Virus record (IMG/VR): IMGVR_UViG_3300037246_000906
Location: 1 to 51,961 of that record
Length of the DNA stretch: 51,961 bases
Origin: a virus
Reading direction: 5' to 3' (one strand)
Part shown: piece by piece, positions 15,301 through 43,292 of the stretch
Layout of the letters: every line of letters starts with the position of its first letter
How positions within the stretch are numbered: position 1 is the first letter of the stretch
Translations under genes and position numbers: made by a program
The notes under the pieces: generated by a model
Told to the model about the DNA's origin: nothing
Seen by the model: only the letters and a program-made list of their open reading frames with translations
The model's database searches: none

Positions 15301-18300
15301 ATTGTTCTTAATAATGGAATCGTTGCTCTACCTACAATATCGTTATTTGTTATTGTATCTGTGATAAATTTACCTACATCCTTACTAATAGTATCACTGA
15401 TAAATACTCCACCGTCATGGAAGAATCCACTTGATGTAAAGCCAGCAAGTGTGTATCCACTAGATTCGAATATCTCTCTAAATAAGTTCCCAGTATGTTT
15501 TAGAGGTATTACTACATCTGCTACATGTATTCCACCGAAGTTTACAAATCCACTTTCTGTAAATCCAGTAATTGAAAAACCACTCTCCTCTAATATAATT
15601 CTTAGGTTGTTTAACTTTCTACCAATTATGTTAGAAACATTTATAACAGGTTCACCTATATTTCTAATAGCAGATAAGACTTTGGCAATGACGTCTGACT
15701 GTGATATAGTGTCAACAAGGGCTACATTTAATGAAGTAACTCTTGCCACTACATCACCAATAAACACCCCTCCACCGTGTACGAATCCCTCGGTAAATCC
15801 TGTAAGTGTAAAGCCACTAGATTCGAATATTTCTCTAAAGAAGTCGAGACCAGTTTCCACCGTACTAATACTATCTTCAAGTAATACTCCACCCAACTTG
15901 TAGAATCCACTATCAGTAAACCCACTCCAAGTAAACCCTCTAATCTCTACTATATTTCTAAACTGATCAAGTACTCTAATAATAGAATCCACTTGTAACA
16001 CTGTTTCATTTAGAATAGCAAATACATGTCCAATTCCACCTGTGACTACATCATCAGTAAGTAATATTTGATTATCTGTAATATTTTTAAGTTGACCTAA
16101 ACTACCACTAACTGTATCACCTACGAACTGAGTTATATTAATTACAAATCCACTTGCAGTAAATCCACTAACTGTAAATCCACTAACTTCCAATATCTCT
16201 CTAAGTAGGACTATTAATCTATCAACACTATCAAGTGGGTTAATTGACTCTGTCAATGTTCTTGAAAATCCAGCTATTCTTTCAACTATATCGCCTAATA
16301 CTATATTTTCTGATCCAATTACTGTTCTAATTGCTCCAACACTAGATGTTATAATCTCACTAAAGAATACACCTCCACCAGTTGTTTCTGGTGATGTAAA
16401 TCCACTTAAAGCGAATCCAGTTAAAGTAAATCCTCTGGTTTCAAATATGGTTCTAAACATTTCAATAACCCTTACAACACTATCTCCTTGTGTAACAGTA
16501 TCAAATATAGGTCTCACCGTACCAAACAAGTTGATTTGACCTATAACATCATCTAACTGTGTTACTGTATCAATTATAGAATATGAAACTCCTTTTGTTA
16601 TAATATCGAATATCTGCACTCCACCCTGCACGAATCCATCGGTAAATCCTGTAACAGTAAATCCAGTTCCCTCAAATATTGTTCTGAAAAATGCGTGTAT
16701 TGAAGCCTGTCCGTCTACAACATCAGATACAGAAATTCCAAAATTCTCGGTAAACCCACTTAGTGTGAATCCACTAAATGTGAAACCACTAGACTCACTA
16801 ATTGTTCTTGCAAAGTTACTAATTCTATTTACCACATCATCTAACACAGTTGTTTCACTAGCAATTCTTGAGAATGGATCACCAAGTCTACTTATAATAT
16901 CATCTAATATTGTTGTACTACTTGTAACTCTAGTTAGTGTTAGCATTCTGTCTACAACATCACTTACAAACACTCCTCCGTTCTTATAGAAACCACTTGC
17001 TGTGAATCCACTAAGTGAGTATCCAGCAGTTTCAAATATGTTTCTGAAAAAGTCACCACTAGTAACCCTAATTACACTATCACTAACAAATATTCCACCA
17101 AACTTTACAAATCCTTCTGTAAATCCAGTTGCAGTAAAACCACTTTCCTCCAACACAATTCTAAAGTTATCTATCTGTCTACCAATAACTTCTAATGGAA
17201 TAGTAACTGCCTCTGACATTCCATATGTAATTGCTTTCTTTATTGTATCAAGTATTGGTATGTTTTCAGTTGTTATTGTTCTTGTTAATACACTAATTCT
17301 ACTAACCACATCACCCACGAATACACCACCATCATGGAAGAATCCCTCGGTAAATCCAGTTAGGGTAAATCCACTTGTTTCGAATATGTTTCTAATTAAA
17401 TCTACATTTACTATTGAACTAATACTATCATGTATGAATGCTCCACCTTGTAAGAAGAAACCACTAGCAGTAAATCCAGTTGTGGTAAATCCTTGAATTT
17501 CTAAGAATGTTCTAAATTGATCAAGTAATCTAATAACAGTATCATTTTGTGTTATTGTGTCTGCAAAGAATCTTAAGTTTCCAAACTCATTAATTATTTC
17601 TACCACATCATCAGATATTGCAGTTATATCACCAGTGTTAATTTCACCAACAAACCCAAATCCTCTTTCTATAACATCACCAACAGCAACTCCACCAGCA
17701 TATAAGAAACCACTGGCAGTAAATCCACTTAATGTAAAACTGAATGAATCTTCTAATATTGCTCTTAATGAAACCAATAGTCTATCAACTCCATCATCAA
17801 CTACAATAGTTTCAATTGCTGGTCTAAATATACCGAAGAAGTTTATTATTCCACTAACAACGTCACCAGTAGTTATTGTGTTACTGATAATTCTTAATAA
17901 TGAAGTTGCTCTACCTACAATATCATTTATTATAACATCTTCACTTATAACTCCGAATTTAGTGAAACCATTAATTAATTCCTCAACTGGAACTATAACT
18001 GTTTCACCTATTGTTCTAAAACTTGTTATAATTCTAATAATAGGATCGTTGATAACTACATTTTCGGCAACAAATAATATTCTTTGTATTGACTGTGTTG
18101 CTACATCACTAAGTATGATAAAGTCTGTTAGTTGGAATGTATGTAATCCTCTTTGGAATCTAATCTTTCTACCAACCTCATCTAGTAATCCAGTAACACC
18201 GTCTGCGATAAATCTTGGTCTATCTTGGATACCACTTATAATATCACTAATCGCAGTCGCGTGTGTAAAGAATCCAGTTATTGTAAATCCACTAATAGTA

Positions 18301-21029
18301 AAACCTTGAACATCTATTACACTTCTAAACGCAACAGTTAGTCTGTTTGCTATATCACCTACAACAACGTTTTCGGTTACAAATCTCAAGTTTCCAAACT
18401 CGTTTATTATTCTAGCAACAACATCACTAATCGCAATTATTGGAGTATCGTTAATTGTTACTGACTGTGATCTAAATGCAGTTACAACATCATTAAGTCC
18501 TGCTCCACCTATCTTAAACCCACTAATAACGAATCCTGTTAGGGTAAATCCTCCTGCCTCCAATATATTTCTAAAGAAGTTTGCTATTCTAGTAACTCCA
18601 ACAACTATATCTTCTATTATAATTTTATTACTCTCAGTAAAGAATCCACTAAGTGTGAATCCACTAATGGTAAAACTTCCTGCTGATATTGTTCTAACTA
18701 AACCGTGTACTCTATCTATTATGTTACTAACCACAACAGTATTAACAAGGTTTACTACTCTACCAATAACACCTACAACATCATCATTTGTAGTTATAGT
18801 TTCACTTAATTGTTTACCAACTGCCTTACCTATACTATCTAATAAATAAACTCCACCGTTAAACCTAAACCCAGATAATGTAAAACCACTAAGTGTGTAT
18901 CCACTTTGTTCTACAATATTTCTAAATAACTCAGTAATTCTAACCACACCAAGTGGACTATCATCTACATATATTGCGTTATCAAACACGAATCCTGTAC
19001 TACTAAATCCAGTTCTTACGAAACCAGTTGTTTCTATTATTGTTCTTACAACATCAACTACAGATCCAATTATCTCGGAAGTGTTTGGATGGAAAGAAAA
19101 TCCTTGTAATTCTTTGAAAAAGTCAAACTTTGTTGCAACTTGATCACCCAATGCAGTTATGTTTGCTCCCAAGAATTTACTTACATCTTTCTGTATTGTA
19201 TCAAGTACAAACACTCCACCATTATTAAAGAATCCACTTGTAGAAAATCCAGTTAAACTAAATCCTGCTGTTTCGTTAATTGTTCTAAATAGATTTCCTG
19301 TATGTTTAACAATTTGTATTATATCTTGGTTGTATATACCTTTACTAAACTCGAATCCACTTTTGGTGAATCCACTAACTGTAAATCCAACACTGCTTAA
19401 TAATGTTCTAAATGCTCCAAGTGATCCTATAATAGTTTCAATTGGTATAGTTATGTTTTCTACCATACCATATGTTACACCTCTCTTTATTGCATCGCTA
19501 ATTGACTCGCTTTCGGCTAATATTCTTGTTAATACATTAAGTCTACTAACTACATCACCTACGAACACACCTCCTGCGTGGTAGAATCCTTCGGTAAATC
19601 CAGTTAGAGTAAATCCACTAGTCTCGAATATTTCTCTGAAAAAGTCACCACTTGCCTGCATTGCATCATCAAGTATTGGTACACCTGTGTTTAGGGTAAA
19701 CCCACTTGTTGTGAATCCACTAATTACGAACCCAAACTGTTCAGAAATATTTCTAAAGTATTCAATAACTCTATCTACACTATCAGATTGTGTTACAGTT
19801 TCTACGATAAATCTTAAGTTTCCAAACTCGTTTATTATCTCAGCAACAACATCATTTCTTGTTATTATGTCGCCAGTGTTAATTATTCTGCCTACCTCTC
19901 TAACACGGTTTACAATATCGGTAACATAATATTGGTTTAATACGAAACCACTTTGAGTAAAACCTGTGAAAGTGAATCCTGTCACTTCCAGCACATTTCT
20001 AAAGGCTTCTATTACCCTTATTACACTATCACTCTGTGTAACGGTATTATTAATGTTTCGTTTTAATGCGATCAGTCTATCTTCTATTGTATCACTTAAC
20101 ACATTGATCTCGGCACCAATTACTGTTTCGGCTAATCCGATAGATTTAATAACGGCATCTTCAAAGAGAACACCACCATAAGTGAAACCCTGAGTAAATC
20201 CAGTTAATGTAAAGCCTCTGCTTTCTAAAATGGATCTACTACTTACAAGTAATCTTCCTACAATATCACTCTGTGCAACTGTGTTACCAATGTTTCTCAA
20301 AAATCCGAATGCGTTGATCACTCCACCAACCACATCATCAAATATTGTTGTTTCAAGTATTGGGCTACTTGAACCCTTACTAATATTTCCAGTAATAATT
20401 ATTCCATCATCGCCTACAACGAATCCACTTGGTGTGAAACCAGTCTTTGTAATACCACCTGAATGTAATATTATTCTAAACATATCAATTAATCTATTTG
20501 TTATGTCAGAAGTTATAACGGTATCATCAATAAATCGTATATTACCAAACAGGTTTATGAATCTAAGTACTGTATCGTTTACAACAAATCCGTTTAATGT
20601 TTTTCTAAACTCTCCTTTTACAACACTGTCTTCTAAACCTAATGCACTTTCTAAAGTAAATCCACTTTTTGTTAAACCAGTTACTGTAAATCCTTTTCCG
20701 TTAATTGCATTTCTGATAAATTTTGCTATTCTAGTTACTGGACTACTTGAAGTAATATTTTCAATTGCATTTCTTAATAATCCAAATTTATTTACAATAG
20801 CTTCTATTATATTATCACTAGGTATTCCAATATTCTCTGCTGGTTTTACTAATTCCCCTTTATTCAGATTTTCTATTACTTGAACTATTTCTTTTGTAAA
20901 TCCACTGGCGCTAAACCCACTTGGGAAGAATCCACCAGTATCTAAAACAACTCTTAAAAATAGAATAATTCTGTTTAGAGTATCGTTACGCGTAACCGTA
21001 TCGTTAAGCCCTCTTGGGAAATCAGTCAT
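9336..21029 (-). CDS. Giant 3897-residue repeat protein, putative tail fibre or surface adhesin
   Basis: One uninterrupted frame of 11.7 kb, almost a quarter of the window. No Cys was seen, Lys is scarce, and Ile, Val, Asn, Thr, Asp, Arg and Phe dominate. Three repeat regimes are visible. Residues 1 to about 2440 hold roughly 36 copies of an FRxILExxGFTxxGFTxSGF block, often followed by GGVFxxDxI. Residues about 2440-3770 are a near-perfect 20-residue repeat (FRxLLNTVVIxDxVIRxIxx). The last 120 or so residues repeat every 10 (TxIRDSIxFx). The GFT block appears to be an insertion into the 20-residue unit. Periodic hydrophobic strands with conserved Asn/Asp suggest a beta-solenoid fibre. Neighbours are tail-fibre and baseplate-like genes. 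There is no recognised homologue family, and a tape measure is less likely because that class is helical. Confidence 0.85.
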   Translation of the reverse strand: MTDFPRGLNDTVTRNDTLNRIILFLRVVLDTGGFFPSGFSASGFTKEIVQVIENLNKGELVKPAENIGIPSDNIIEAIVNKFGLLRNAIENITSSSPVTRIAKFIRNAINGKGFTVTGLTKSGFTLESALGLEDSVVKGEFRKTLNGFVVNDTVLRFINLFGNIRFIDDTVITSDITNRLIDMFRIILHSGGITKTGFTPSGFVVGDDGIIITGNISKGSSSPILETTIFDDVVGGVINAFGFLRNIGNTVAQSDIVGRLLVSSRSILESRGFTLTGFTQGFTYGGVLFEDAVIKSIGLAETVIGAEINVLSDTIEDRLIALKRNINNTVTQSDSVIRVIEAFRNVLEVTGFTFTGFTQSGFVLNQYYVTDIVNRVREVGRIINTGDIITRNDVVAEIINEFGNLRFIVETVTQSDSVDRVIEYFRNISEQFGFVISGFTTSGFTLNTGVPILDDAMQASGDFFREIFETSGFTLTGFTEGFYHAGGVFVGDVVSRLNVLTRILAESESISDAIKRGVTYGMVENITIPIETIIGSLGAFRTLLSSVGFTVSGFTKSGFEFSKGIYNQDIIQIVKHTGNLFRTINETAGFSLTGFSTSGFFNNGGVFVLDTIQKDVSKFLGANITALGDQVATKFDFFKELQGFSFHPNTSEIIGSVVDVVRTIIETTGFVRTGFSSTGFVFDNAIYVDDSPLGVVRITELFRNIVEQSGYTLSGFTLSGFRFNGGVYLLDSIGKAVGKQLSETITTNDDVVGVIGRVVNLVNTVVVSNIIDRVHGLVRTISAGSFTISGFTLSGFFTESNKIIIEDIVVGVTRIANFFRNILEAGGFTLTGFVISGFKIGGAGLNDVVTAFRSQSVTINDTPIIAISDVVARIINEFGNLRFVTENVVVGDIANRLTVAFRSVIDVQGFTISGFTITGFFTHATAISDIISGIQDRPRFIADGVTGLLDEVGRKIRFQRGLHTFQLTDFIILSDVATQSIQRILFVAENVVINDPIIRIITSFRTIGETVIVPVEELINGFTKFGVISEDVIINDIVGRATSLLRIISNTITTGDVVSGIINFFGIFRPAIETIVVDDGVDRLLVSLRAILEDSFSFTLSGFTASGFLYAGGVAVGDVIERGFGFVGEINTGDITAISDDVVEIINEFGNLRFFADTITQNDTVIRLLDQFRTFLEIQGFTTTGFTASGFFLQGGAFIHDSISSIVNVDLIRNIFETSGFTLTGFTEGFFHDGGVFVGDVVSRISVLTRTITTENIPILDTIKKAITYGMSEAVTIPLEVIGRQIDNFRIVLEESGFTATGFTEGFVKFGGIFVSDSVIRVTSGDFFRNIFETAGYSLSGFTASGFYKNGGVFVSDVVDRMLTLTRVTSSTTILDDIISRLGDPFSRIASETTVLDDVVNRISNFARTISESSGFTFSGFTLSGFTENFGISVSDVVDGQASIHAFFRTIFEGTGFTVTGFTDGFVQGGVQIFDIITKGVSYSIIDTVTQLDDVIGQINLFGTVRPIFDTVTQGDSVVRVIEMFRTIFETRGFTLTGFALSGFTSPETTGGGVFFSEIITSSVGAIRTVIGSENIVLGDIVERIAGFSRTLTESINPLDSVDRLIVLLREILEVSGFTVSGFTASGFVINITQFVGDTVSGSLGQLKNITDNQILLTDDVVTGGIGHVFAILNETVLQVDSIIRVLDQFRNIVEIRGFTWSGFTDSGFYKLGGVLLEDSISTVETGLDFFREIFESSGFTLTGFTEGFVHGGGVFIGDVVARVTSLNVALVDTISQSDVIAKVLSAIRNIGEPVINVSNIIGRKLNNLRIILEESGFSITGFTESGFVNFGGIHVADVVIPLKHTGNLFREIFESSGYTLAGFTSSGFFHDGGVFISDTISKDVGKFITDTITNNDIVGRATIPLLRTMVEGGISFLDSIVRKVDLNRIISVISGFVYTGFTETGFVIDRGVIVDEIIGGTTRIGNFFRDIAESSGYSLSGFTLSGFVQGGGVAINDFIFPRFYNAYVIITENTILSDIVEEIINEFGFLRPVIGAEIIVISDSVIRKIDAFRGLLESRGFTFSGFQLSGFTISDGIGGVFISDVVIGVKGFIRDITTGDTTSISDVVARIINEFGFIRNVLEVEPIFDTITRQLSLSRILLQIQGFISTGFTSSGFFLHGGANVFDSITAIVPEDFFRNIFESAGFTISGFTAGFTMGGGVFIGDTVARIRGSVRTASENVGVLETLISGLGRGLIESISVSNITNRILALNRILTATRGFVISGFTQTGFTMEDVAQITDSLNVIEHIGNLFRFINEASGFTQTGFTISGFAIGGGVQFIDTIGLALGKVIAETVIINDNVAKIKNLPAFIAESVISLSDGVGRLLSLSRVISEFRAFTEGFTLSGFTGGGVTIQDVVSGVISNVQFFRFIFEGRGFTGSGFTLSGFFISGGVEIIDDLITGIRGVPRLVTENVAISDNFVRLLELFRNLAENTIFVVTPLEVSFTDKLVSPLEAPIILLDSVIRRLDLQRILTNNVVLSDVVVDIANLFRLISETVVINDVVVATNSFLRNISETITQNDTVIRVIELFRTLSENIAVSDAVVRVIDFFRIIAETVTIGADIVQVARDVPRNILQFVANAIDSVDRLLEMFRIVPLETIIIPVETVIRSLGLGRILLNTIALSDDVVRSITLERILLNTVVINDAVNRTIDQFRAIIGAEIIALSDDVIRQLGLIRVLLNNVVVNDAVIRSITQFRVLLNNVVVNDDVDRVIDFFRNMSENVIIGIDNIITNITRLLPNTVVISDNVIRQIDMFRSVIGADIITLSDDVIRRLDQFRVLLNTVVVGDTVNRILEMFRIINTGDIITLDDAVIRTLGVVRELIENITVIDVVVRNTVMFRTMLDTVVLDDVLDRIAGKVREISEAVNLDDTIATTLGFFLSETVVLSDAVVRRLDQFRITFNTVVLSDSVIRVLANIRTLNENILLPHFLIAVVGNFRTLAENVAINDSVIRVIELFRALSENVVIIDVGNPDVDLFRTVIGAEIIVVSDAVIRQIDLFRALAENVPNITFDNVIRQIELFRILLNTVVINDVISRVRDVPRVLSETIVIPVESVIRRLDQFRLLADTIVVGDAVIRRLDQFRVLAETVIINDSLIRLQTAFRVLLNTVTQNDTVIRVLEMFRALSENIQPVDDIIRLINLTVVIVFNNVIIGAEVLVRQINLFRVLLNNVVVNDALADVANLFRIINTGDIIAVSDVIIAVRDRLRDIAEQAVNLTDDVIRQINLFRVLLNNVVIDDVGSPTIALFRDVIGAEIVTLSDDVIRVLNNFRVLLNTITLSDDVVRLMVEFRVLLNTVVINDPVVRVIELFRAVIGAEVITLSDTVTGIRNTLRFIAEQAVNLTDDVIRQIDLFRVLLNTIILDDNITFNQTFFRILLNTVVLSDDVIRILANIRVINDTPVIAVSDQVIRVIVLFRTLIESTLLPHFVIRQIDMFRSMAETVVLSESIFMGLFRDLAETITQNDTIIRVLELFRILLENNTAFEGVQRTLGNARIMIGAEVIALSDVVVRVIGAFRVIANTIVLDDVITYNQTYFRTLLNNVILDDAVDRTIELFRTIAETILFDPVDSILATRIRPADLFDTVVIGADNIVRQINLFRILLNSLDPLDDLKIALSRVVPNQFIPTNDQVIRVLNMFRTPLNTIIQLDEVIRQIEIFRILTNTITVDDIVTGIADLFRFINEPVINMIDEVVRIAGTVGSAFETIVVDDTIIRELELFRELIEPVIDIFEDLFSSFVRPSVLLFTTIIRPSILFNTTIRESITFPTRIRLSVVFLTLIREGISFGTTIKDSIAFTTILGMSDLSWNTVIRDSIIFGTIVKDTFDWNTVIRDSLDFVTRIKISLNFITRIKDSEGN
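9339..9695 (-). repeat. Coding repeat array 3: 10-residue (30-base) units at the C-terminus
   Basis: The last stretch repeats every 10 residues: TTIRESITFP, TRIRLSVVFL, TLIREGISFG, TTIKDSIAFT, TVIRDSIIFG, TVIRDSLDFV. Period 10 is half of the 20-residue unit upstream, suggesting a simplified form of the same strand-turn pattern at the end of the chain. Confidence 0.8.
9750..13700 (-). repeat. Coding repeat array 2: 20-residue (60-base) units
   Basis: About 65 tandem units of 20 residues each, such as FRLLADTIVVGDAVIRRLDQ followed by FRVLAETVIINDSLIRLQTA. Invariant features are FR at the start, N/E/D-T-V in the middle, an Asp, and V-I-R near the end. Some units carry a six-residue insert (IGAEII, INTGDII). 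Confidence 0.85.
13700..20990 (-). repeat. Coding repeat array 1: about 36 GFT-type units
   Basis: The first two thirds of the giant gene repeats units of about 60-75 residues whose core is FR, three to six residues, GFT, two residues, GF, three residues, SGF. Examples are GFTLTGFTEGF, GFTVSGFTKSGF and GYTLSGFTLSGF. I counted about 36 cores by eye. The units are diverged but keep reading frame, so selection acts on the protein. Confidence 0.85.
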
Positions 21030-21050
21030 TAATATACAATATCATTACTC

Positions 21051-21062
21051 GCAAATAAGCAT
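21051..21062 (-). promoter_or_regulatory. ATGCTTATT promoter of the giant gene
   Basis: The minus strand reads ATGCTTATTTGC, about 27 bases before the ATG at 21029. It belongs to the ATGC-TTATA promoter set of the structural half, with the TATA part weakened to TTATTT. The transcript would have almost no leader. Confidence 0.5.
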
Positions 21063-21074
21063 AAAAAAAGAAAA
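21062..21074 (-). terminator. Poly-T terminator after 21080-21646
   Basis: The minus strand carries TTTTCTTTTTTTAT directly after the stop of the tail protein gene. Archaeal RNA polymerase typically stops at such U tracts. It directly abuts the next promoter. Confidence 0.55.
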
Positions 21075-21079
21075 TTTGT

Positions 21080-21646
21080 TTACCCTAATGTTAAAGTCCA
21101 AGTAACTGTTAGTGTATCGTTTAACTGAAGACTTGCTGGTGTAAACGTATTCTCGTGTCCCAATGTACCTGAGACTGGTGCGGTGTCTATATCAAATAGT
21201 CCTGCTAATTGTACTGCGGTGTGGATTCCTCCAGCTGTGAAAGTATTGGCTACTGTTGATGTATTCTGTGTTGGAATATGTGTGTGTATTGAAGCGTCTA
21301 CTCTTTCTAAGCCGTCTCCTGTAATTTCACCAGCTACAAATGTGTGTGAAGCGTCTGCTCCACTTGCGTTTACTGATAGTGCAATAATGTTAAATCCCAG
21401 TTGAGTTGCAGTTACTTGCTCGACATATAGTGCGTCGTGCATTGCGTCTCTTCCTGCTGTAGTTAAAAGATTGTGTTTATTCTTACAAAGAACTTCTTCA
21501 TCTTCTCTACCTTCGTTTTTAACAACGGTTACAAAGCCGTGAATTACTTGGTGTTCCTCGAATCCTCTTTTTGTGGCTTGCTCAAAACTACCTAACTCAT
21601 TTGCTCCGATTTTATCAACCATACCGTTATCTACTATGTCGGTCAT
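21080..21646 (-). CDS. Putative tail structural protein
   Basis: 188 residues, starting inside the previous stop (ATGA). The central KNKHNLLTTAGRDAMHDALYVEQ followed by a beta-rich, Ala/Thr-rich part resembles minor tail proteins that carry an N(L/I)(V/L)TTAGRD signature before a strand-rich domain. HTHIPTQNTSTVANTF and the terminal TLTVTWTLTLG are strand patterns of a capsid- or fibre-like fold. Likely part of the tail tip or fibre set with the neighbours on both sides. The exact role is unknown. Confidence 0.6.
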   Translation of the reverse strand: MTDIVDNGMVDKIGANELGSFEQATKRGFEEHQVIHGFVTVVKNEGREDEEVLCKNKHNLLTTAGRDAMHDALYVEQVTATQLGFNIIALSVNASGADASHTFVAGEITGDGLERVDASIHTHIPTQNTSTVANTFTAGGIHTAVQLAGLFDIDTAPVSGTLGHENTFTPASLQLNDTLTVTWTLTLG

Positions 21647-21923: not shown

Positions 21924-24900
21924 CTACATTACGGTTCTTACGCCATCGGGATCGTCTTCGTCCCATTGATTGTCAACTGTATTCTTCTCAAGTCTGTAGT
22001 GGAAGTGTGCTGTAACATCTACGTGGTATCTTCTATACATAATTCTATTAATTACAATTCCACTAGAATCAGTTGTTCCTACAATTTGAGTCCAAAGTGT
22101 TGGAGTTTGGTGGTTTCCTTCTAAAACCCTGTTTACTACGAAGAATCTAAATACATCATCTGTAATATCAGCAGTATCTATTGTTCTAACAGTATCTGCG
22201 TCTGTGAAGAATAAGTTTCCTGTAATATTCTGTCTGATTTTAAACTGTGTTTCTTTAAATCTATCTGCTTGGAAGTGAATTGCATATCCTACTGGATCAT
22301 AGTGCATTTCTCTTAATCCAACATTGTCTGGATTACCTGTTCCTTGTATTGGGAATGCATTCTTTCCTCTGTTAGCGTCGTCCCAAATCTGTATTTTCTC
22401 TATTTTTCCTTGAATAGTAGAATCACTTGTACTTGCGTCATTGTTATTCTTAACAATAAAGTGATCCATTGTAATTAATGTTGATACACAGTCTAAAGTA
22501 GCATTTTCATGTGTTTCAATTTTCATATCTTCATCACTATATACAGACACTCCATATCCTGTTCCCGTATTTCTATAAACTCTAATATAATATTTAGTTC
22601 CCAATACATATGGGTTTACTATTACTGCGTCTGCTAAATTATTTAATACTCCATTAAGTGCAGAATCATATCCACCGATTGCACTTTCATTACTTGCGTG
22701 AGTAACCTTTATACCAATACTGTGGTGTGTTCCGTTTGCACCTATTGTACTATCTCTTTGATCAACTCCGATAAATAATTCTGCTGGAGTTGTTGTGTTT
22801 GCAAAGTGTGAAGTTATTGTTAATTCCATTCTCATTTCCCATTCAATATTACTTAATGCGCTTGGTGTAATATCTGAACCAAGTGCATAACTTATACTAT
22901 CATTAGAGTTATCACGTTTACAGTCAAAGTCAAGTCTATTATCAACTACATTAATATCAATGTTTGCACTATCTTGTGGCAACCATTTAACGTGTGCTTC
23001 TTCTATATTACTATATTCTGTAAAGTCTTCAACCATTCTTGGAATAGCGTGTCCTAGAATTAATTGTGGTGGATAATTGTCACCTGTACCTTTTGCAGTA
23101 TCAGAAACCCAGTAATCATTTACATTACCAGCAATATCTACATTAAGTACACCTTGTGCTGGTTCACCAGTTACATTACATCTTAGAATAGAACTATCTG
23201 AGTTCCAAAATTGTAACATATCGAATTCTATTGTTCTATCTCCAGAATTACTTATACTTGCGTCATTGGTAATTTTCCATTGTGCTAAATTATCTATTAA
23301 ACTTGTTATTGATACTGTTTTTAATAATGAACTTGCGTAAACAAATTTCTTGTCTACTCCAAAGAATTGGAATGTAAATGTTCCAGTTCCTGTTCTAATA
23401 ATTTCCCAGTGATACCAAATATCTGGTTCCATAACAACAACGAAAGTTTCTTCTATTGTTGAAGTTTCTAAGCCTTGTTCGTTTGCTTCAACACTTTCTA
23501 CTGTGTATGTTGTGCTTGCACTATTTTTAATTCTAATTCCCATAAAGTCATGATTTGCTGTTGAAGCACTACCAGAATCTAAGTTACTTAATCCAATATA
23601 AATATCTCCACCGCTTGCACCGTCTGCTTTTGCTGAGATTAATGTTCTAAATCTTGCAGTCCAAAGAGAATTATTTCTGTCTGATCCATAATCGAAACTT
23701 ACTGAGTCGTTTGTAGTATCACCTACACACTGGCAAGTCATTCTATCATTAACTGGATCTATTGTAAATTTAGTATGGTCACTTGTTAGCCAACCCTCTT
23801 GAGTTGAAGGTGAACTTGTATGTGCTACTCCACCGTCAAAGAATGCGTCGTCAGTAATTATTTCTTGAGTACCATAAGAATTACTCCACCAACCTTCTAA
23901 TAATGTGGTTGTAATTGGTGTTACTGGTAATGGTGTACCTAAGAAAGTTGTATTTGGTGTTGTATCTAAATAGTGTGCATGGTTTCTGTCATTGTTTGCT
24001 TGGTTTAATAGATCTCCAATTGAACTGAATCTTTTTGGATCTAAGTTTAATACACCTGTGTTAGTTAGTGTTGCGTCTCCGCTCATTGTTACACTTTGTC
24101 CTTCATTAGAACCATCACCAACAATTAAGTCTGCGTTATTAACTGCGATTTTTGCTGGTGCTATATCTGCACTTGTTTTAATATCTGCATTTGCAATGTT
24201 TGTAATAGTGTTGTTATCGGAATCAATTTGTTTGTTTGTTAAAACATCATTTGTTGCTTGACCTACAAGTGTATCATCTGCGTCTGGGAAAGTAATACTT
24301 CTGTCTGTACTTGCTATTGAAATTAATGTAAGTGTAGTTGCTGTAGTTGCTCCTGCGTTACTAAATGCTACTTGTTTAGAAGTATCACCGTCGTCTTGAA
24401 CTCTGAATAATGTGTCCAAGAATGTAGTTGTTCCACTTCCTGCGAATTGTGTAAACACTCCTGCTTTTCTAACTAGTAATGTTGGTACGGTTTCTGAAAG
24501 ATTAATATCTACTCCGCCTTGTAAGAATAAATCATCTGAGGCAGGTGCTGGGTTGTGTGTTATTGTAATTGTATCTCCAATTTTTGCGTATAATGCTACA
24601 ACATCATCGTCTGATAATCCTGTTAAGGTATCAAGTGTATCTACAGTTCCAGTTTCTGCTGTTACTTCGATTGCTGTTGAAGTTACTGCCAATGCTCCTG
24701 TTGAGATTGCAGTTTGTGTAATTGGTAATCCTAAAATTGCACTAATGTCAATACCTTTGTTTGTAAGGTTTTGAGCTTGTGCGTTAAATGTAATTTCGTC
24801 ATTGCCTGTTAAAAGAGGGAAAGTAACATCTCTATCTGCTGTGATTGCAGAAGATTGAACGATATAAGTAAAGTCGCCTGCTGGGTTTATAATATGTAAT

Positions 24901-25064
24901 TTGCCGTCTCTAATAAAGAATTGTGAATTAATATCAATGTCGTCAACATCAAGATCTCCATTGAAAACTTGACTGATTTTCTTAACATCAGGTGCTCCGT
25001 AGATAACACTTGAACCTGCGTTAGGATCTGTTGCTTCTTTCCAATTAGTAGAAGGTACTGGCAT
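21924..25064 (-). CDS. Tail fibre / receptor-binding protein with two lectin-like domains
   Basis: 1046 residues. The N-terminal 360 or so contain phrases typical of phage fibres: DRSITFPDADDTLVGQ, LTNKQIDSDNNTITNI, DIAPAKIAV and SGDATLTNTGVLNL, built from short beta repeats. Two related domains follow at about residues 400-640 and 690-930. Each starts with a W..H/D pattern and a CQC or DCK segment near NDSxSxxxGSD, and each holds SGGDIYIGLSNLD or AELFIGVDQRDS and then a W-x-I/IRVYRNTGTG strand. That layout is that of concanavalin/LamG-type carbohydrate-binding sandwiches. The C-terminal 110 residues are strand-rich and probably form the tip. It likely recognises glycans on the host surface. 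Confidence 0.8.
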   Translation of the reverse strand: MPVPSTNWKEATDPNAGSSVIYGAPDVKKISQVFNGDLDVDDIDINSQFFIRDGKLHIINPAGDFTYIVQSSAITADRDVTFPLLTGNDEITFNAQAQNLTNKGIDISAILGLPITQTAISTGALAVTSTAIEVTAETGTVDTLDTLTGLSDDDVVALYAKIGDTITITHNPAPASDDLFLQGGVDINLSETVPTLLVRKAGVFTQFAGSGTTTFLDTLFRVQDDGDTSKQVAFSNAGATTATTLTLISIASTDRSITFPDADDTLVGQATNDVLTNKQIDSDNNTITNIANADIKTSADIAPAKIAVNNADLIVGDGSNEGQSVTMSGDATLTNTGVLNLDPKRFSSIGDLLNQANNDRNHAHYLDTTPNTTFLGTPLPVTPITTTLLEGWWSNSYGTQEIITDDAFFDGGVAHTSSPSTQEGWLTSDHTKFTIDPVNDRMTCQCVGDTTNDSVSFDYGSDRNNSLWTARFRTLISAKADGASGGDIYIGLSNLDSGSASTANHDFMGIRIKNSASTTYTVESVEANEQGLETSTIEETFVVVMEPDIWYHWEIIRTGTGTFTFQFFGVDKKFVYASSLLKTVSITSLIDNLAQWKITNDASISNSGDRTIEFDMLQFWNSDSSILRCNVTGEPAQGVLNVDIAGNVNDYWVSDTAKGTGDNYPPQLILGHAIPRMVEDFTEYSNIEEAHVKWLPQDSANIDINVVDNRLDFDCKRDNSNDSISYALGSDITPSALSNIEWEMRMELTITSHFANTTTPAELFIGVDQRDSTIGANGTHHSIGIKVTHASNESAIGGYDSALNGVLNNLADAVIVNPYVLGTKYYIRVYRNTGTGYGVSVYSDEDMKIETHENATLDCVSTLITMDHFIVKNNNDASTSDSTIQGKIEKIQIWDDANRGKNAFPIQGTGNPDNVGLREMHYDPVGYAIHFQADRFKETQFKIRQNITGNLFFTDADTVRTIDTADITDDVFRFFVVNRVLEGNHQTPTLWTQIVGTTDSSGIVINRIMYRRYHVDVTAHFHYRLEKNTVDNQWDEDDPDGVRTVM

Positions 25065-25086
25065 AATAGTAGTTTGTATTAATTAT

Positions 25087-25097
25087 TATATAAGCAT
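25087..25097 (-). promoter_or_regulatory. ATGCTTATATA promoter of the tail-fibre gene
   Basis: The minus strand reads ATGCTTATATA, about 27 bases before the ATG at 25064, implying a nearly leaderless transcript. Confidence 0.65.
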
Positions 25098-25110
25098 ATT
25101 TTACGGGATT

Positions 25111-25122
25111 TAAAAAAAAAGA
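25111..25122 (-). terminator. Poly-T terminator after 25128-25454
   Basis: The minus strand has a run of nine T directly after the stop of the small fibre gene and before the next promoter. Confidence 0.55.
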
Positions 25123-25127
25123 TTCTC

Positions 25128-25454
25128 TTACAGTGCGATAACTACATATTTGTCGCCAGAAACACATGTAACCTTTGCGTTAGTTGCATCGTGAGTTCCC
25201 TCAATATATGAACCAATACCAGTAACTTCAGTTGGGATAACAATAACTAGGGCTGGTGTTCTACCAAGTCCGTGTGCTGTATCTACCTCTGAACCAGTAC
25301 CTGTGATTTCTGTGCTCTTAAAGTAAGAAATTTTGTTTGCTTGAATGCTAGCAAGTGCAATATCTGCGTTTACAACTGTTTGATCAACTAAACCTCCAAC
25401 GGTTCCTTTGAATTGCAATACATTATTTGCGTCTCTTATGAATCTATTAGGCAT
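25128..25454 (-). CDS. Small tail-fibre-like protein
   Basis: 108 residues. The C-terminal half, STEITGTGSEVDTAHGLGRTPALVIVIPT and then YIEGTHDATNAKVTC and YVVIAL (given here in parts), is a beta-rich module seen at the ends of phage fibre proteins (G.GSE...AHGLG..PA.V.V.P). The N-terminal part (NVLQFKGTVGG, VNADIALASIQANK) resembles a fibre repeat that registers trimers. Monocistronic, with its own promoter and terminator, which may allow high expression. Confidence 0.65.
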   Translation of the reverse strand: MPNRFIRDANNVLQFKGTVGGLVDQTVVNADIALASIQANKISYFKSTEITGTGSEVDTAHGLGRTPALVIVIPTEVTGIGSYIEGTHDATNAKVTCVSGDKYVVIAL

Positions 25455-31500: not shown

Positions 31501-31509
31501 TCACCTCCT
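31501..31509 (-). promoter_or_regulatory. Strong Shine-Dalgarno site
   Basis: The minus strand reads AAAGGAGGTGA before two in-frame ATGs. Spacing favours the ATG at 31494. It is the longest anti-16S match noticed in the window and marks a gene that is probably highly translated. Confidence 0.7.
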
Positions 31510-31554
31510 TTTTAGAAGTTAAAGTATTAAGAACTTACTCTTTTATAAGTGTTG

Positions 31555-31698
31555 TTATCTGAAAAAGTTTTGGATTCTTCCACATTCTGAACACCACTCC
31601 AATTCAAAGGTATCCATTTTGGGATCTTGGGTCTTTACATAAATTGCGTTTATATGACCGTATGCCTCACATTCCTTGAATCTACATATTGATCTCAT
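31555..31698 (-). CDS. Zinc-knuckle microprotein
   Basis: 47 residues: ICRFKECEAYGH near the start and WCSECGRIQ near the end form a CxxxxC/CxxC site around a strand (INAIYVKTQ). Its ATG shares a base with the stop before it (TAATG). Confidence 0.65.
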   Translation of the reverse strand: MRSICRFKECEAYGHINAIYVKTQDPKMDTFELEWCSECGRIQNFFR

Positions 31699-31790
31699 TA
31701 TACAAACCTCTTACAGATTTTGCAATAATCTTTTTCTTTCTTGGTTAGTGGTATTCCACACTGCATACATTTCTTATTGACCGCTGGCAA
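31698..31790 (-). CDS. Tiny zinc-ribbon protein (start uncertain)
   Basis: 30 residues from a TTG at 31790, or 22 from the ATG at 31766. The longer form keeps both halves of a ribbon, KKCMQCGIP and YCKICKRF, so the TTG is preferred. The stop overlaps the next ATG. It overlaps the upstream gene's end by 17 bases. Confidence 0.5.
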   Translation of the reverse strand: MPAVNKKCMQCGIPLTKKEKDYCKICKRFV

Positions 31791-31920
31791 GTAAGAACTT
31801 CTCCAATTTATTTCTTAACATAATGTCTTCGGGTGCACACATTTCATTATTTCTATAATCGGGGAAACTATGATGAAACCAGTTATAAGCTCGTTTAGCA
31901 CTAGGAATATCCAAATTCAT
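31774..31920 (-). CDS. Small unknown protein
   Basis: 48 residues, mostly helical (DIPSAKRAYNWFHHSFPDYR; EDIMLRNKLEKFLLASGQ). It is first in a short unit behind a TTATATA box 21-34 bases upstream. No family recognised. Confidence 0.55.
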   Translation of the reverse strand: MNLDIPSAKRAYNWFHHSFPDYRNNEMCAPEDIMLRNKLEKFLLASGQ

Positions 31921-31940
31921 ACAACCACTATATAAGTGTT

Positions 31941-31954
31941 CTATATATAAGCGT
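31941..31954 (-). promoter_or_regulatory. TATA-box promoter (ACGCTTATATATAG)
   Basis: The minus strand reads TACGCTTATATATAG, about 27 bases before the ATG at 31920. It is intermediate between the ATGC-TTATA class and the simple TATA class. Confidence 0.55.
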
Positions 31955-31959
31955 AATGG

Positions 31960-38349: not shown

Positions 38350-38694
38350 TTATTTTAAGTTATCCCACGCGTGCTGGCTACAAAAATGCTCACATATACA
38401 TCCCTTAACTTTACAAATAAATCTTTCACTCCACCAACCACGCTTTTTAACGTAACCGTGTTGTAGTGAACCATGCTTACAGTGACATGCTTTGCCAGTT
38501 GATTTTACTATCTTTAATCCACTTTTTCCTTTTCTTGCCTTTGCTATAATCGCTAGTTCTTCATCCCTACTAATCACTTCCCCTTGATTAAGTGGGTTAT
38601 CCATTGAAAGTATCTTATCCCAGTATTCACTAGCCTTATCTTTTTCGGCTTTATCAAATTCAGAAAAATTACTGGAGTCGTTACTCAAGGTCAA
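38350..38694 (-). CDS. Zinc-binding protein, unknown
   Basis: 114 residues with a probable TTG start at 38694 (or 38688). A charged helical N-terminus is followed by ACHCKHGSLQHGYVKKRGWW and ICKVKGCICEHFCSQHAW, a Cys/His set similar to that of 4699-5028 (CxCxH...CxCxxF). The two may be paralogues. Confidence 0.65.
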   Translation of the reverse strand: MTLSNDSSNFSEFDKAEKDKASEYWDKILSMDNPLNQGEVISRDEELAIIAKARKGKSGLKIVKSTGKACHCKHGSLQHGYVKKRGWWSERFICKVKGCICEHFCSQHAWDNLK

Positions 38695-39148
38695 TGGTTA
38701 GCCTCCTATTAATATCACACCAATTACAACCCTCACCAGTTTGTAGTAACCCACAATCTAAGCATTTGTCTTGGTTTTCTCTATCCCACCTATCGTCAGT
38801 ACAAATACAATCAACATAATCAATGATTTCGGTTTCTTCTAAATCTTGATATGCTGGTAGTTGACCTGCGCCTTGGCAGACTTTACATTCAACACGTTCT
38901 ATTTCGACTTTGTTGAATTGCTCGAAGATCTCATTTTGGATTTCTGCAACTTTAAATCTAACTGCTTCGAATTCCTTGATTTTTAATAACCAATAGTTTG
39001 CGTCTTTCTTAAAACGACTGTATTGATTTCCATCGGTTGTACGATTCATAGCAGATACATTATCGTAGTGATTCTTTTTCAAGAATTTTAACTTCTTATT
39101 GTATGCTGATTTTTCCTTAATGGTCTCAACAATTTCTATCTGTCTCAT
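38681..39148 (-). CDS. Protein with DnaJ-type zinc knuckles
   Basis: 155 residues. The first 85 form a basic coiled helix (IEIVETIKEKSAYNKKLKFL; FEAVRFKVAEIQNEIFEQF). Then VECKVCQGAGQ, DCICTDDRW, KCLDCGLLQ and GCNWCDINR supply eight Cys for two zincs, as in DnaJ-type zinc domains. The CQGAG core shares 16 identical DNA bases (38865-38880) with the giant protease-fusion gene (2115-2130). A TATA box is at 39167-39178. Confidence 0.7.
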   Translation of the reverse strand: MRQIEIVETIKEKSAYNKKLKFLKKNHYDNVSAMNRTTDGNQYSRFKKDANYWLLKIKEFEAVRFKVAEIQNEIFEQFNKVEIERVECKVCQGAGQLPAYQDLEETEIIDYVDCICTDDRWDRENQDKCLDCGLLQTGEGCNWCDINRRLTIDLE

Positions 39149-39194
39149 ACTATACGATATACCGTAGAGTATAAAAGGTTTGCGATCAACAATA

Positions 39195-39207
39195 CATTTA
39201 TATAACC
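39195..39207 (+). promoter_or_regulatory. Plus-strand TATA-box promoter of the structured RNA
   Basis: Plus strand ATTTATATAACC, centred about 26 bases before 39226. It is the only convincing plus-strand promoter noticed and faces away from the promoter at 39167-39178. Confidence 0.65.
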
Positions 39208-39225
39208 TAGGGTATAAGATATATT

Positions 39226-39453
39226 AGATTCGGAGGTCGCGTCTCTAGAGATAGATACAGGATTCCATTGGAAACTTTGGGAAACTTAACACGCATACGG
39301 CACCAGACTAAGGGTTGAAAAGCCTAAGCAAAGGTATATCAGATCAGCGATATACGAATAACGGTCGATTACGTTCTGCCGTATTAGCTCAGCAGAACCC
39401 ATGAAGTCGATTGCAACGATGAGGGTGGGGTTAAGGAGAGCACCGAATTTTTT
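39226..39453 (+). ncRNA. Structured non-coding RNA of unknown class
   Basis: About 228 bases without a convincing protein frame, visibly richer in G+C than the surroundings, and with plus-strand signals: a TATA box 26 bases upstream and a T6 run (39448-39453) at the end. The ends pair: ATTCGG (39228-39233) with CCGAAT (39443-39448), a terminal stem. Inside are GTATATC/GATATAC (39334-39340 with 39349-39355) and GTTCTGC/GCAGAAC (39373-39379 with 39392-39398), both perfect 7-base stems. AACG/CGTT (39360-39375 region) offers an alternative hairpin. A TAGCTCAGC string recalls a tRNA D-arm, but no tRNA cloverleaf is found. It does not match RNase P, SRP or group I intron cores known to me. Confidence 0.72.
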
Positions 39454-39460
39454 AACTAAA

Positions 39461-39472
39461 ATAAAAAAAAGG
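39461..39472 (-). terminator. Poly-T terminator after 39477-39872
   Basis: The minus strand reads CCTTTTTTTTATTTT just past the stop. With the plus-strand T6 at 39448-39453 it makes a convergent terminator pair. Confidence 0.55.
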
Positions 39473-39476
39473 TAGT

Positions 39477-39872
39477 TTACTTAAAGAAACCTTTAATGTA
39501 AAACTTACCGTCAAAGAATTTATCAACTGCGAATTCTATTTTTTTATCATCGCCAGTTGCACTAAGTCCTAAATATGGGCTTATTGTTTGTGGTGCGTTA
39601 GTTTGCTCATTTTGTAAATGGCTTGGTTGTTTCCATCCATTTGAACCGTCAATACATAATTCTAACCCACACACTTTACTGACTTTCCAGCCGTAAGACT
39701 TTGGGCTTATAACATCGTGTTTATTCCAATCTAATGGATAACTAACATTACCTCGTTTTTGTATATCAAGTCTATCTAATGGATTTGCATCCCATGAACT
39801 AGCATATGCTACTCCCGAACTAAGTCCAGTCATTAACACTAATGCTACTAACACTGCTATTACTTTATACAT
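39477..39872 (-). CDS. Secreted protein with signal peptide
   Basis: 131 residues. MYKVIAVLVALVLMTGLSSG then VAYASSWDA is a Sec signal peptide with a likely AYA-S cut. The mature part has two Cys (VCGLELC) that could form a disulphide, and is polar with WKQPSHL and APQTISPYLG. No transmembrane segment remains. It may act at the host surface, for example on superinfection or adhesion. It has its own promoter (39893-39904) and terminator. Confidence 0.75.
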   Translation of the reverse strand: MYKVIAVLVALVLMTGLSSGVAYASSWDANPLDRLDIQKRGNVSYPLDWNKHDVISPKSYGWKVSKVCGLELCIDGSNGWKQPSHLQNEQTNAPQTISPYLGLSATGDDKKIEFAVDKFFDGKFYIKGFFK

Positions 39873-39904
39873 TAAAATAATTATAACTTCTTGGCATATA
39901 TGTA

Positions 39905-40048
39905 TTATTTAGTTTTGTGTATAGATTCCTTTTCCTCGGTTTTCTTCTTGGCGTATTTCTCCCTCTCGGTTTCTGGTGTTTCGAACCATGGGAAGTAATA
40001 CATTATTGTAGCTTCATGTGAGTCAATAAACATTTTATGGGTTTTCAC
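39905..40048 (-). CDS. Small unknown protein (start uncertain)
   Basis: 47 residues from a GTG at 40048. An ATG five codons later is also possible, and the frame stays open upstream to about 40115. It has an aromatic patch (TIMYYFPWFETPE) and a charged tail (KKKTEEKESIHKTK). No family recognised. Confidence 0.4.
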   Translation of the reverse strand: MKTHKMFIDSHEATIMYYFPWFETPETEREKYAKKKTEEKESIHKTK

Positions 40049-40089
40049 TATTCCCTGCCTAATGCCTTGAGCTAGTAAAAATTTAATAT

Positions 40090-40359
40090 CTACCTTTTGA
40101 ATATCGACCAGAATCCCTCACCTTTAGGATCACCTGTAATATGCCTGCCATCCCACTTTAACGTTCCCTCCCAACTTATTGGTTTGTTTTTACATTTTTC
40201 TAGTATGGCAGTTTCGTTTGGCATTAATGATATTGTTTGATGTTCGCTATTACAATCATAGCAATTGATTTGTAATCTTCGTATAAATTCCTTTGGCATG
40301 GCTCCCCTATCCATTCCAATCATGTCTATTAAATCTAATTCACCGTTATCGTGTTTCAT
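40090..40359 (-). CDS. Small Cys-containing protein, unknown
   Basis: 89 residues. NCYDCNSEHQTISL looks like half of a zinc ribbon, with a further Cys in EKCKNKP. The end is polar with SWEGTLKWDGRH. It starts directly after the stop of the membrane protein gene. Confidence 0.65.
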   Translation of the reverse strand: MKHDNGELDLIDMIGMDRGAMPKEFIRRLQINCYDCNSEHQTISLMPNETAILEKCKNKPISWEGTLKWDGRHITGDPKGEGFWSIFKR

Positions 40360-40914
40360 TTAATCTTCCCATTCCAGCATTGGACAGTGATTTTTCTTCC
40401 AAGCCTTTAGGTATTCAATTGTCATACTTGGTGTTTTTTCCTTGTATGGTTTCGATTTATGTGGATGATCATATCTCCAATCGGAATAATGCTCACCACA
40501 TATAATTACGGCTTTGCAAATTAAAGCGATTAAACCAATTATTCCTACAACTACACCAGTCCAAAATGCAAACTCATACCAACCTACCAATTCACCTAAT
40601 CCATACACTCCATATACAACTAATGCAGTTACAGTGAGTAGTGATACCTTACCTATATTCATTTGTGTTTTCTTGCTTATACTTGGCATTTCAGGTAAAC
40701 TAATATTGCTTTCGGGCATACTTGGCATTTCGTGATCTCCATCATCCCATACGCGAAGTAACTCTTTTGGTATTACTATAAATGGAAATATAATAGTTGC
40801 TAGAATAGTTCCCCAGAAGTATGGACACAGGTTGTTTGCTTTTTCGCTATATCTCCAACCATAAACATAATCATTAAGTTTAGTATGCCAAGCACCTTTC
40901 TGAATTCTAACCAT
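40360..40914 (-). CDS. Membrane protein with three or four helices
   Basis: 184 residues. Hydrophobic stretches at about 30-50 (FWGTILATIIFPFIVIPK), 93-115 (VSLLTVTALVVYGVYGLGEL) and 117-140 (FAFWTGVVVGIIGLIALICK). A Pro/Glu/Met/Ser-rich cytoplasmic loop (EMPSMPESNISLPEMPSISK) sits between the first two. No family recognised. Confidence 0.7.
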   Translation of the reverse strand: MVRIQKGAWHTKLNDYVYGWRYSEKANNLCPYFWGTILATIIFPFIVIPKELLRVWDDGDHEMPSMPESNISLPEMPSISKKTQMNIGKVSLLTVTALVVYGVYGLGELVGWYEFAFWTGVVVGIIGLIALICKAVIICGEHYSDWRYDHPHKSKPYKEKTPSMTIEYLKAWKKNHCPMLEWED

Positions 40915-40934
40915 TTACTAGTCGCTTTATCTTT

Positions 40935-40947
40935 CGTTATATAAATC
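40935..40947 (-). promoter_or_regulatory. GATTTATATAACG promoter
   Basis: The minus strand reads GATTTATATAACG, about 27 bases before the ATG at 40914. The same 13 bases occur before 48033, showing a conserved right-half promoter. Confidence 0.65.
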
Positions 40948-41120
40948 TAACTCTCTGCCCAGTTACTATCACATGTGGTACAAAATCCACGATAACCATT
41001 ATAGCGATTATCCCACATCCTATATGCTGGGTTTCCACAATTCAAACAAACATTATCTCCCTCCTCGTGAAATAATCCCCAGTATCTATACCACACCCAC
41101 TTAGCAGTCAGGCTTGACAT
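40947..41120 (-). CDS. Zinc-ribbon protein
   Basis: 57 residues: a tryptophan-rich start (AKWVWYRYWGLFH), VCLNCGNPAYR and FCTTCDSNW. It has an AATTTATATATG box at 41140-41152, overlapping the stop of the preceding gene. Confidence 0.7.
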   Translation of the reverse strand: MSSLTAKWVWYRYWGLFHEEGDNVCLNCGNPAYRMWDNRYNGYRGFCTTCDSNWAES

Positions 41121-42250: not shown

Positions 42251-42375
42251 TAGTCTGCCTCCTTTAGTGTATGCTTTTCAATTATATGTAATAAAATATT
42301 ATGTGTGAGAAATGGTTCGCTATTAACTGCTTCACCTGTAAATCGGAACTTACAGTTTTCTACTGGGCAGTTCAC
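42250..42375 (-). CDS. C2H2 zinc-finger microprotein
   Basis: 41 residues, GTG start overlapping the tRNase Z stop (GTGA). CPVENCKFRF, LTHNILLHIIEKH is a single C2H2 finger: C-x4-C and H-x4/5-H. Coupled downstream by TAGTG. Confidence 0.65.
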   Translation of the reverse strand: MNCPVENCKFRFTGEAVNSEPFLTHNILLHIIEKHTLKEAD

Positions 42376-43292
42376 TTTAATTCAATCTCCAAAAAGTCTC
42401 TAGTAACGATAACATGCTTATGGAACTTACTAGCATCCTTATAAAAACCTTCCGTATTCTCATGTCTTGCTGAAAAGTGGTTTAACAATAAGGTTTTAAC
42501 TCCTGCTTTGCCTGCCAATTCGCCAGTTTCACTAGCCGTACTATGTTTACTTTTAAGTGCCAAGTCCAACTCGTCAGTTCTAAATGTTGATTCGAATGTT
42601 AAGTAATCACAATCCTTGAAGAATGTTTCCAAGTCTTCCGTTGGTCTTGTATCACCACTAAATCCAATTTGTAAGCCTTTTCGCTTTTCACCTACAACGT
42701 CTTTAGATTTAATTGTAACAGTATATTTATCTGGTACGGTTTCAAACAACTTTACATCCTCACCACGTTTTAACTTACCCAATAACTCTCCGTCAGGTAC
42801 GCCTAACGTGTGACATTTTTCAATATCAAGTGCTCCATCTCTATCTGGTAACACAACCCTATACGCGATGATTGGGACTTGGTGTTTTCCTCTACATGTT
42901 GAAACAGAAAAGTGTTTATGTGTAATTGAATCTCCTGCCTCAATTTCCACAACATCAAAGTCGAATGCAAATTGTACAGCATGACCTCTATGTAGGTTTA
43001 GGATAAATGCCTTGATTCCTTTTGGCCCATATACTTTAACTGGTTCGGTTCTTCCCATTAAATCCATGCTTTGAAATAAACCCAAGATTCCCATGATGTG
43101 ATCGGAATGCAAATGAGTAATTAACAAAGTCATTGGTTTGTTCCATTTTAAGTATGATTTTAAATATTGACGGCAAGTTCCATCACCACAGTCAACCATG
43201 ATGTAATGTTTACCCAAATCCAAAACAGTACACGATAAACCTCTTTCAATAGTTGGCATCGCGCCACTTGTTCCTAAATAGACTAATTTCAT
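42372..43292 (-). CDS. rnz: tRNase Z (ELAC-type metallo-beta-lactamase-fold ribonuclease)
   Basis: 306 residues, the length of short-form tRNase Z. LGTSGAMPT, then ITHLHSDHIMGILGL (HxHxDH), an exosite-like insert, GFSGDTRPTEDL, ESTF, KHSTASETGELAGKAGVKT and LNHFSARH are all present in family order. It cuts the 3' trailer from tRNA precursors. Viral copies are rare. It might process viral tRNA-like RNA, such as the structured RNA at 39.2 kb, or affect host tRNA. No tRNA gene is visible here. Promoter and start suggest a leaderless message. Confidence 0.88.
   Translation of the reverse strand: MKLVYLGTSGAMPTIERGLSCTVLDLGKHYIMVDCGDGTCRQYLKSYLKWNKPMTLLITHLHSDHIMGILGLFQSMDLMGRTEPVKVYGPKGIKAFILNLHRGHAVQFAFDFDVVEIEAGDSITHKHFSVSTCRGKHQVPIIAYRVVLPDRDGALDIEKCHTLGVPDGELLGKLKRGEDVKLFETVPDKYTVTIKSKDVVGEKRKGLQIGFSGDTRPTEDLETFFKDCDYLTFESTFRTDELDLALKSKHSTASETGELAGKAGVKTLLLNHFSARHENTEGFYKDASKFHKHVIVTRDFLEIELK

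Follow-up and report, generated by a model that had tools for sequence, protein, structure and literature searches.

Results

Genes and candidate features of the virus record

The DNA analysed here, referred to as the window, is the IMG/VR virus contig IMGVR_UViG_3300037246_000906 over its whole length of 51,961 bases (34.7% GC). Essentially all of its genes are carried on the minus strand, and a candidate non-coding RNA lies on the plus strand in the gap 39149-39476. The features discussed below are the following.

38350..41120, no strand assigned: 2.8-kb accessory block holding the candidate RNA, missing from the collinear relative G425
39194..39207, plus: archaeal TATA/BRE promoter ACATTTATATAACC, located with a matrix derived from the virus's own promoters
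39226..39453, plus: candidate non-coding RNA of about 225 nt, based on its predicted start, its GC and purine content, no plausible ORF and no Rfam match
39227..39233, plus: 5' arm of the terminal stem, GATTCGG, pairing with 39443-39449 (mean probability 0.98)
39295..39302, plus: 5' arm of the central stem, ATACGGCA (8 bp), pairing with 39377-39384 (mean probability 0.64)
39312..39325, plus: small hairpin GGGTT-GAAA-AGCCT (mean probability 0.78)
39334..39355, plus: 7-bp hairpin GTATATC/GATATAC (mean probability 0.99)
39377..39384, plus: 3' arm of the central stem, TGCCGTAT (8 bp)
39387..39441, plus: irregular 3' hairpin with the pairings GCTC/GAGC, AACCC/GGGTT and GTCG/CGAT (mean probabilities 0.93, 0.56 and 0.95)
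39443..39449, plus: 3' arm of the terminal stem, CCGAATT, running directly into the T-run
39448..39453, plus: T6, presumed from its sequence to be an archaeal terminator
39477..39872, minus: neighbour gene, probably coding for a secreted protein, with a signal-peptide-like N-terminus
42372-43292, minus: RNase Z gene (NCBIfam NF000801, 263.9 bits; cut-off 252)

Many of the window genes are preceded by a TTTATATA box, the motif start of which is located 32-34 nt before the start codon, a spacing that marks an archaeal host with mostly leaderless mRNAs. Thaumarchaeal virus contigs, drawn from IMG/VR using AmoC of ammonia-oxidising archaea as query, matched window proteins at 29-38% for an exonuclease, 30-36% for a matrixin-like protease, 26% for a 1046-aa protein, 57% for a ligase and 39% for a ParB-like protein. 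A second search for relatives with a two-sequence ligase alignment led to G425 (IMGVR_UViG_3300024348_000042, 57 kb), which is collinear with the window across much of 25-49 kb; queries with the direct neighbour of the RNA, the RNase Z, the ligase or the 1046-aa protein alone retrieved no relatives. The window RNase Z retains its metal-binding motif and is 44-47% identical over its full length to Nitrosopumilaceae-like enzymes, with lower identity to others. On the basis of the related thaumarchaeal virus contigs and the closeness of the RNase Z to Nitrosopumilaceae, the host is very probably a (marine) ammonia-oxidising archaeon of the Nitrosopumilales. No recognisable tRNA was detected in the window with ARAGORN or Rfam, nor in the related viral records that were scanned, although the virus encodes an RNase Z. 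The window also contains a single ORF of 3897 aa (9336-21029, minus) in which no Pfam family exceeds the cut-off. The C-terminal half of its product shows weak similarity to long proteins encoded by related thaumarchaeal viruses.

Promoter and ends of the candidate RNA

To score promoters by the virus's own standard, we derived a 14-column matrix from 27 promoters on its minus strand. The site at 39194-39207 scores 11.8 bits with this matrix, which makes it the top plus-strand site across the 52 kb, and four sites of at least 8 bits are found on the plus strand compared with 56 on the minus strand. With a re-trained matrix the site scores 11.1 bits and is the sole plus-strand orphan promoter of the window. 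Taking the spacing from the leaderless genes (32-34 nt past the motif start), the RNA is predicted to start at 39226-39228, which is where the terminal stem begins. An earlier note on this DNA had described a TATA box at the right distance and a lone transcription unit on the plus strand that has a promoter and an end of its own; the former is real when measured against the other promoters of this virus and the latter is supported computationally, as are the boundaries of the RNA, its terminal stem, the T6 run and the raised G+C content. As an end signal, the T6 run is indeed present after the stem, but T6 alone is common, with 53 such runs on the plus strand.

The combination of the two ends is more distinctive. 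When a helix of at least six Watson-Crick pairs, at least three of them G/C, had to be tied to both the start and the T-run, such an anchored terminal helix was found at 40 (0.23%) of 17,147 arbitrary positions. Both strands together contain 160 promoter-like sites, and the site of the candidate RNA is the only one with such a helix. The null for the anchored helix makes no correction for the by-eye choice of this region, but the matrix for the promoter was derived without reference to it.

Composition and coding potential

The purine content of the plus strand is 58% at the candidate RNA compared with a median of 41%, which places it at rank 96 of 51,734 positions. The low median is due to the purine-rich mRNAs of the virus, and the high value at the candidate therefore marks the plus strand as the RNA strand. 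The other most purine-rich plus-strand stretches of the window, 20800-21200 and 24600-25200, lie around the points where two minus-strand genes begin, the giant one and that for the 1046-aa protein. The GC content of the candidate is 0.45 compared with 0.26-0.36 in the other intergenic gaps. No ORF of at least 40 aa lies inside the gap 39149-39476, the longest being 38 aa. The next largest gap, 31501-31959, is occupied by small minus-strand ORFs.

Predicted fold

The predicted fold has two long internal stems, ATACGGCA/TGCCGTAT (8 bp) and GTATATC/GATATAC (7 bp). The folding energy of the whole RNA is only mildly unusual compared with shuffled sequences: 39226-39453 has a z-score of -2.09 (4 of 200 shuffles), a weaker signal than the earlier note had implied, and the reverse strand reaches -1.58. 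The trimmed RNA (39228-39447) has a z-score of -1.68 and the inner domain (39295-39385) one of -2.82. Given this modest folding energy, it is the promoter, the ends and the base composition, more than fold stability, that argue for a transcript.

Searches for homologues and known families

In agreement with the earlier note, which had recognised no known RNA class, covariance searches with Rfam 15 gave no match in the window at the gathering score, and for 39100-39520 no match even at E <= 5. ARAGORN and Rfam detected no cloverleaf that would indicate a tRNA or tmRNA. A ribosomal RNA fragment, suggested by some resemblance, was rejected, as the Rfam rRNA models gave nothing at this position. 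No homologue of the candidate RNA was found in 400 Nitrososphaeria or 250 Nitrosopumilaceae genomes, among the INPHARED phages, or by exact pattern and blastn searches in 33 related viral records. Likewise, 80 loci (1.17 Mb in total, counting the window) were scanned with a single-sequence covariance model and gave no homologue, the best match elsewhere reaching 10 bits with an E-value of about 1. Blastn matches to RNA positions 22-59 in several Nitrososphaeria genomes lie inside apparent protein genes and are for this reason best taken as chance; the same single chance match recurred in the search of the 250 Nitrosopumilaceae genomes. Within the paper library searched, we came upon no account of a structured RNA that stands alone in a virus infecting ammonia-oxidising archaea.

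An accessory block beside a gene of probable host origin

The sequences on both sides of the candidate's surroundings are kept in G425, where window 37948-38328 matches L233 1359-1003 and window 41151-41372 matches L233 1874-1713. As these flanking genes are separated by only about 350 nt in G425, the candidate RNA sits in an accessory block. Four thaumarchaeal genomes encode proteins that share about 35-44% identity with the product of 39477-39872 in the aligned portion, from which we conclude that the neighbour gene is probably host-derived. No homologue of the RNA was found beside the copies of this gene in the four genomes.

Other orphan regions in related viruses

Scanning of the related viral records picked out two further candidate regions. 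The first, a GC-rich non-coding stretch of ~430 nt in G414 (L196 10742-10300, minus), has a fold z-score of -4.24 and a 9.0-bit promoter with a predicted start at 10742. A T6 run comes after its 3' arm, GCCCTCCC, and its 5' element, GGGAGGGC, can pair with GCCCTCCC or with the nearby GCTCTCC; judged from these pairings, GGGAGGGC and GCCCTCCC could act as a switch. The other, a non-coding region of ~540 nt in G403 (L199 6403-5860, minus), has a fold z-score of -4.96, contains the most extreme outlier among 13,190 windows of related virus sequence scanned for folding, and shows a weak promoter (6.1 bits) and repeated GTTTAGGAACG / GGTTAGGAACGTTACG elements. Rfam gave no convincing match for either region; the closest was Tombus_3_IV in G414 (E 0.029), which falls short of its gathering score.

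In addition, an orphan promoter is found between minus-strand genes in G425 (L232 8989-9150, plus), and the ~115 nt downstream of it are closed by CCTCT/AGAGG followed by T4, with a fold z-score of -1.0. The arrangement of this unit is the same as that of the window RNA, but the sequence similarity between the two is at chance level. Sequence shared between the window RNA and the orphan regions of G414, G403 and G425 is at the level of shuffled sequences, and so is the sequence shared between the G414 and G403 regions.

Discussion

The promoter, the strand, the ends, the non-coding nature, the accessory location and the lack of known relatives of the candidate at 39226-39453 were established computationally, and we infer that it is transcribed. 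That it is a real, lineage-specific accessory non-coding RNA seems to us likely, and we hold this with good confidence. The best explanation, which we consider rather probable, is that the virus encodes an independently transcribed, structured non-coding RNA of ~225 nt that acts in trans on a host component. According to this proposal, a host-type RNA polymerase would be recruited by the strong TATA/BRE promoter and begin transcription at the first bases of the 7-bp terminal stem. Transcription would halt in the U6 tract once the terminal stem closes, after about 225 nt, and the product would be a closed RNA whose ends are protected, with two or three stem-loop domains inside; its elements would include the central 8-bp stem, the 7-bp hairpin and the irregular 3' hairpin. 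The RNA might then act in trans as a regulator or decoy that binds a protein or ribonucleoprotein of the host. The regulatory, packaging and decoy functions named in the earlier note were guesses. A structured RNA that is directed at the host and acts in trans is the mechanism we favour, with low confidence, and its host target is a conjecture. Trans action on the host appears most likely because the RNA is part of an exchangeable accessory block and has a gene for a host-like secreted protein as its neighbour, and a trans effect on the host is our leading guess since the RNA has neither a viral antisense target nor a conserved core role. Against this explanation stand the mild folding z-score, with the reverse strand nearly as good, the absence of a homologue in the sequences searched and the lack of any sign of structural selection.

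Several other readings have to be weighed against this proposal. The candidate might be a trans-encoded base-pairing sRNA that regulates host or viral mRNAs via unpaired stretches, such as the GGAAACTTTGGGAAACTT duplication and GGAGGT near the 5' end, a reading we think possible but unlikely. Its size, its own promoter and its terminator fit an archaeal trans-acting sRNA and purine-rich single-stranded loops are present, but plus-strand matches in the window that could pair with minus-strand mRNAs are at most 11-14 nt long, which is chance level. An antisense RNA to viral mRNAs is not supported by these matches, as the lack of significant complementarity argues against a simple antisense action on the virus; base-pairing to a host mRNA may be the next guess after a protein-binding regulator or decoy. 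It is less likely still, and in our view improbable, that the region contains no RNA gene at all and is either a remnant of recombination or a DNA element acting in cis, such as an origin of replication or a site for packaging or attachment. The modest significance of the fold, the lack of conservation and the position in a variable block would be in line with such an element, whereas the strand's best promoter, a helix anchored on the start and the T-run, and the reversal of the purine bias at the candidate RNA would not. In addition, a repeat search (seed 7) revealed no inverted repeats and one weak 71% direct repeat, and the cumulative GC skew displays a small local reversal without a lasting turn.

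Three more specific assignments fared worse. An ATG-started ORF of 24 codons crosses the 3' end of the candidate RNA, so that the locus might produce a short mRNA for the 24-aa basic peptide MKSIATMRVGLRRAPNFLTKIKKR (39401-39475) or for another micro-ORF; we judge this very unlikely, as the ORF reads through T6 and ends beyond it, its ATG is more than 170 nt downstream of the predicted start in a virus that mostly starts 32-34 nt from the TATA box, and the remaining ORFs in the gap are at most 38 aa long. A packaging RNA or other structural virion RNA is highly improbable. The pRNA of phi29-like phages is a viral structured packaging RNA, and a closed, multi-branched RNA in a virus brings it to mind, but the candidate has no Rfam match, is accessory and is not conserved. 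It is missing with the whole block from G425, which keeps the neighbouring genes, and this counts against packaging because a part needed for packaging should be conserved; as far as the sequences can tell, the loss of the whole block favours an accessory over a core packaging role. A reduced or divergent RNase P RNA, acting as partner of the viral RNase Z in tRNA processing, is an equally far-fetched assignment. It was considered because the RNase Z (42372-43292) scores above the curated cut-off and because short motifs, GGAAACTTT / GGGGTTA and GGTTGAAAAGCC..AAGCAAAGG, resemble thaumarchaeal P4 and CR II/III by eye. However, the archaeal family RF00373 has no match in the record at E <= 10, and a custom covariance model based on 15 thaumarchaeal RNase P RNAs gave, with its filters switched off, 4.8 bits (E about 1) at a stretch that overlaps the candidate in part, less than at many random places. 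Pairwise similarity was near shuffle level (8-43 of 300 shuffles), and the favoured fold puts GGGTT in another helix. RNase P RNA was therefore rejected on RF00373, the custom model and the shuffle comparisons.

A host-directed, trans-acting structured RNA remains our preferred reading, at low confidence. Among known systems, virus-encoded structured RNAs such as GOLLD and ROOL come closest to the candidate. GOLLD and ROOL are ornate large RNAs of bacterial phages and prophages, structured and non-coding, the function of which is unknown; ROOL env-120 is 659 nt long, many GOLLDs exceed 800 nt, and these covariation-supported RNAs of bacterial hosts are often encoded beside tRNA islands (PMC12286853). 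The candidate RNA is likewise virus-encoded, non-coding and predicted to be structured, but at about 225 nt it is below the ~600-nt size of these families, has no match to their Rfam profiles, no tRNAs and no homologues found, and belongs to a virus of an archaeal host, and is thus not a member. With archaeal RNase P RNA (RF00373) it has in common that it is a structured RNA, the partner activity of a viral RNase Z and two look-alike motifs, but it does not score with either the Rfam model or the thaumarchaea-specific model. Archaeal trans-acting small RNAs (reviewed in PMC3432209) are short and intergenic with their own promoter and a U-tract; the candidate shares this layout, but differs in being viral and in having no target found.

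The window RNA may be the first and, so far, only member of a new RNA family from an archaeal virus. One might further speculate that stand-alone accessory RNAs, large, strongly folded and unrelated to one another, are routine in viruses of marine ammonia-oxidising archaea and form a counterpart of GOLLD and ROOL, an idea that we regard as tentative and more doubtful than not. Under such a scenario, the window RNA would be a small example and the regions of G414 (~430 nt) and G403 (~320 nt, L199 6403-6080, minus) would be larger ones; the strongly folded orphan regions of these two relatives are perhaps a more interesting lead than the window RNA. If the larger RNAs of the relatives are real, these viruses, which infect some of the most abundant cells of the sea, contain a class of accessory RNAs that is absent from Rfam. 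If transcribed, the RNA would offer a well-defined object for probing its structure and pulling down its partners, and the combination of a virus-learned promoter matrix with an anchored terminal helix offers a way to find such RNAs in viruses without sequence homologues.

Two minor observations were made along the way. In the thaumarchaeal genomes G001 and G013, two RNase P RNA matches each were found, both over the cut-off in G001 and one just below it in G013, which could reflect mixed strains or true duplicates. In related viruses, the stretches between the gene for a small CxxC protein (GSKQIDKI..CIAC) and the gene for a Cys-rich protein (L202 5200-9400 and L208 8050-12750) contain many intergenic gaps that resemble one another in sequence and may be repeated regulatory elements.
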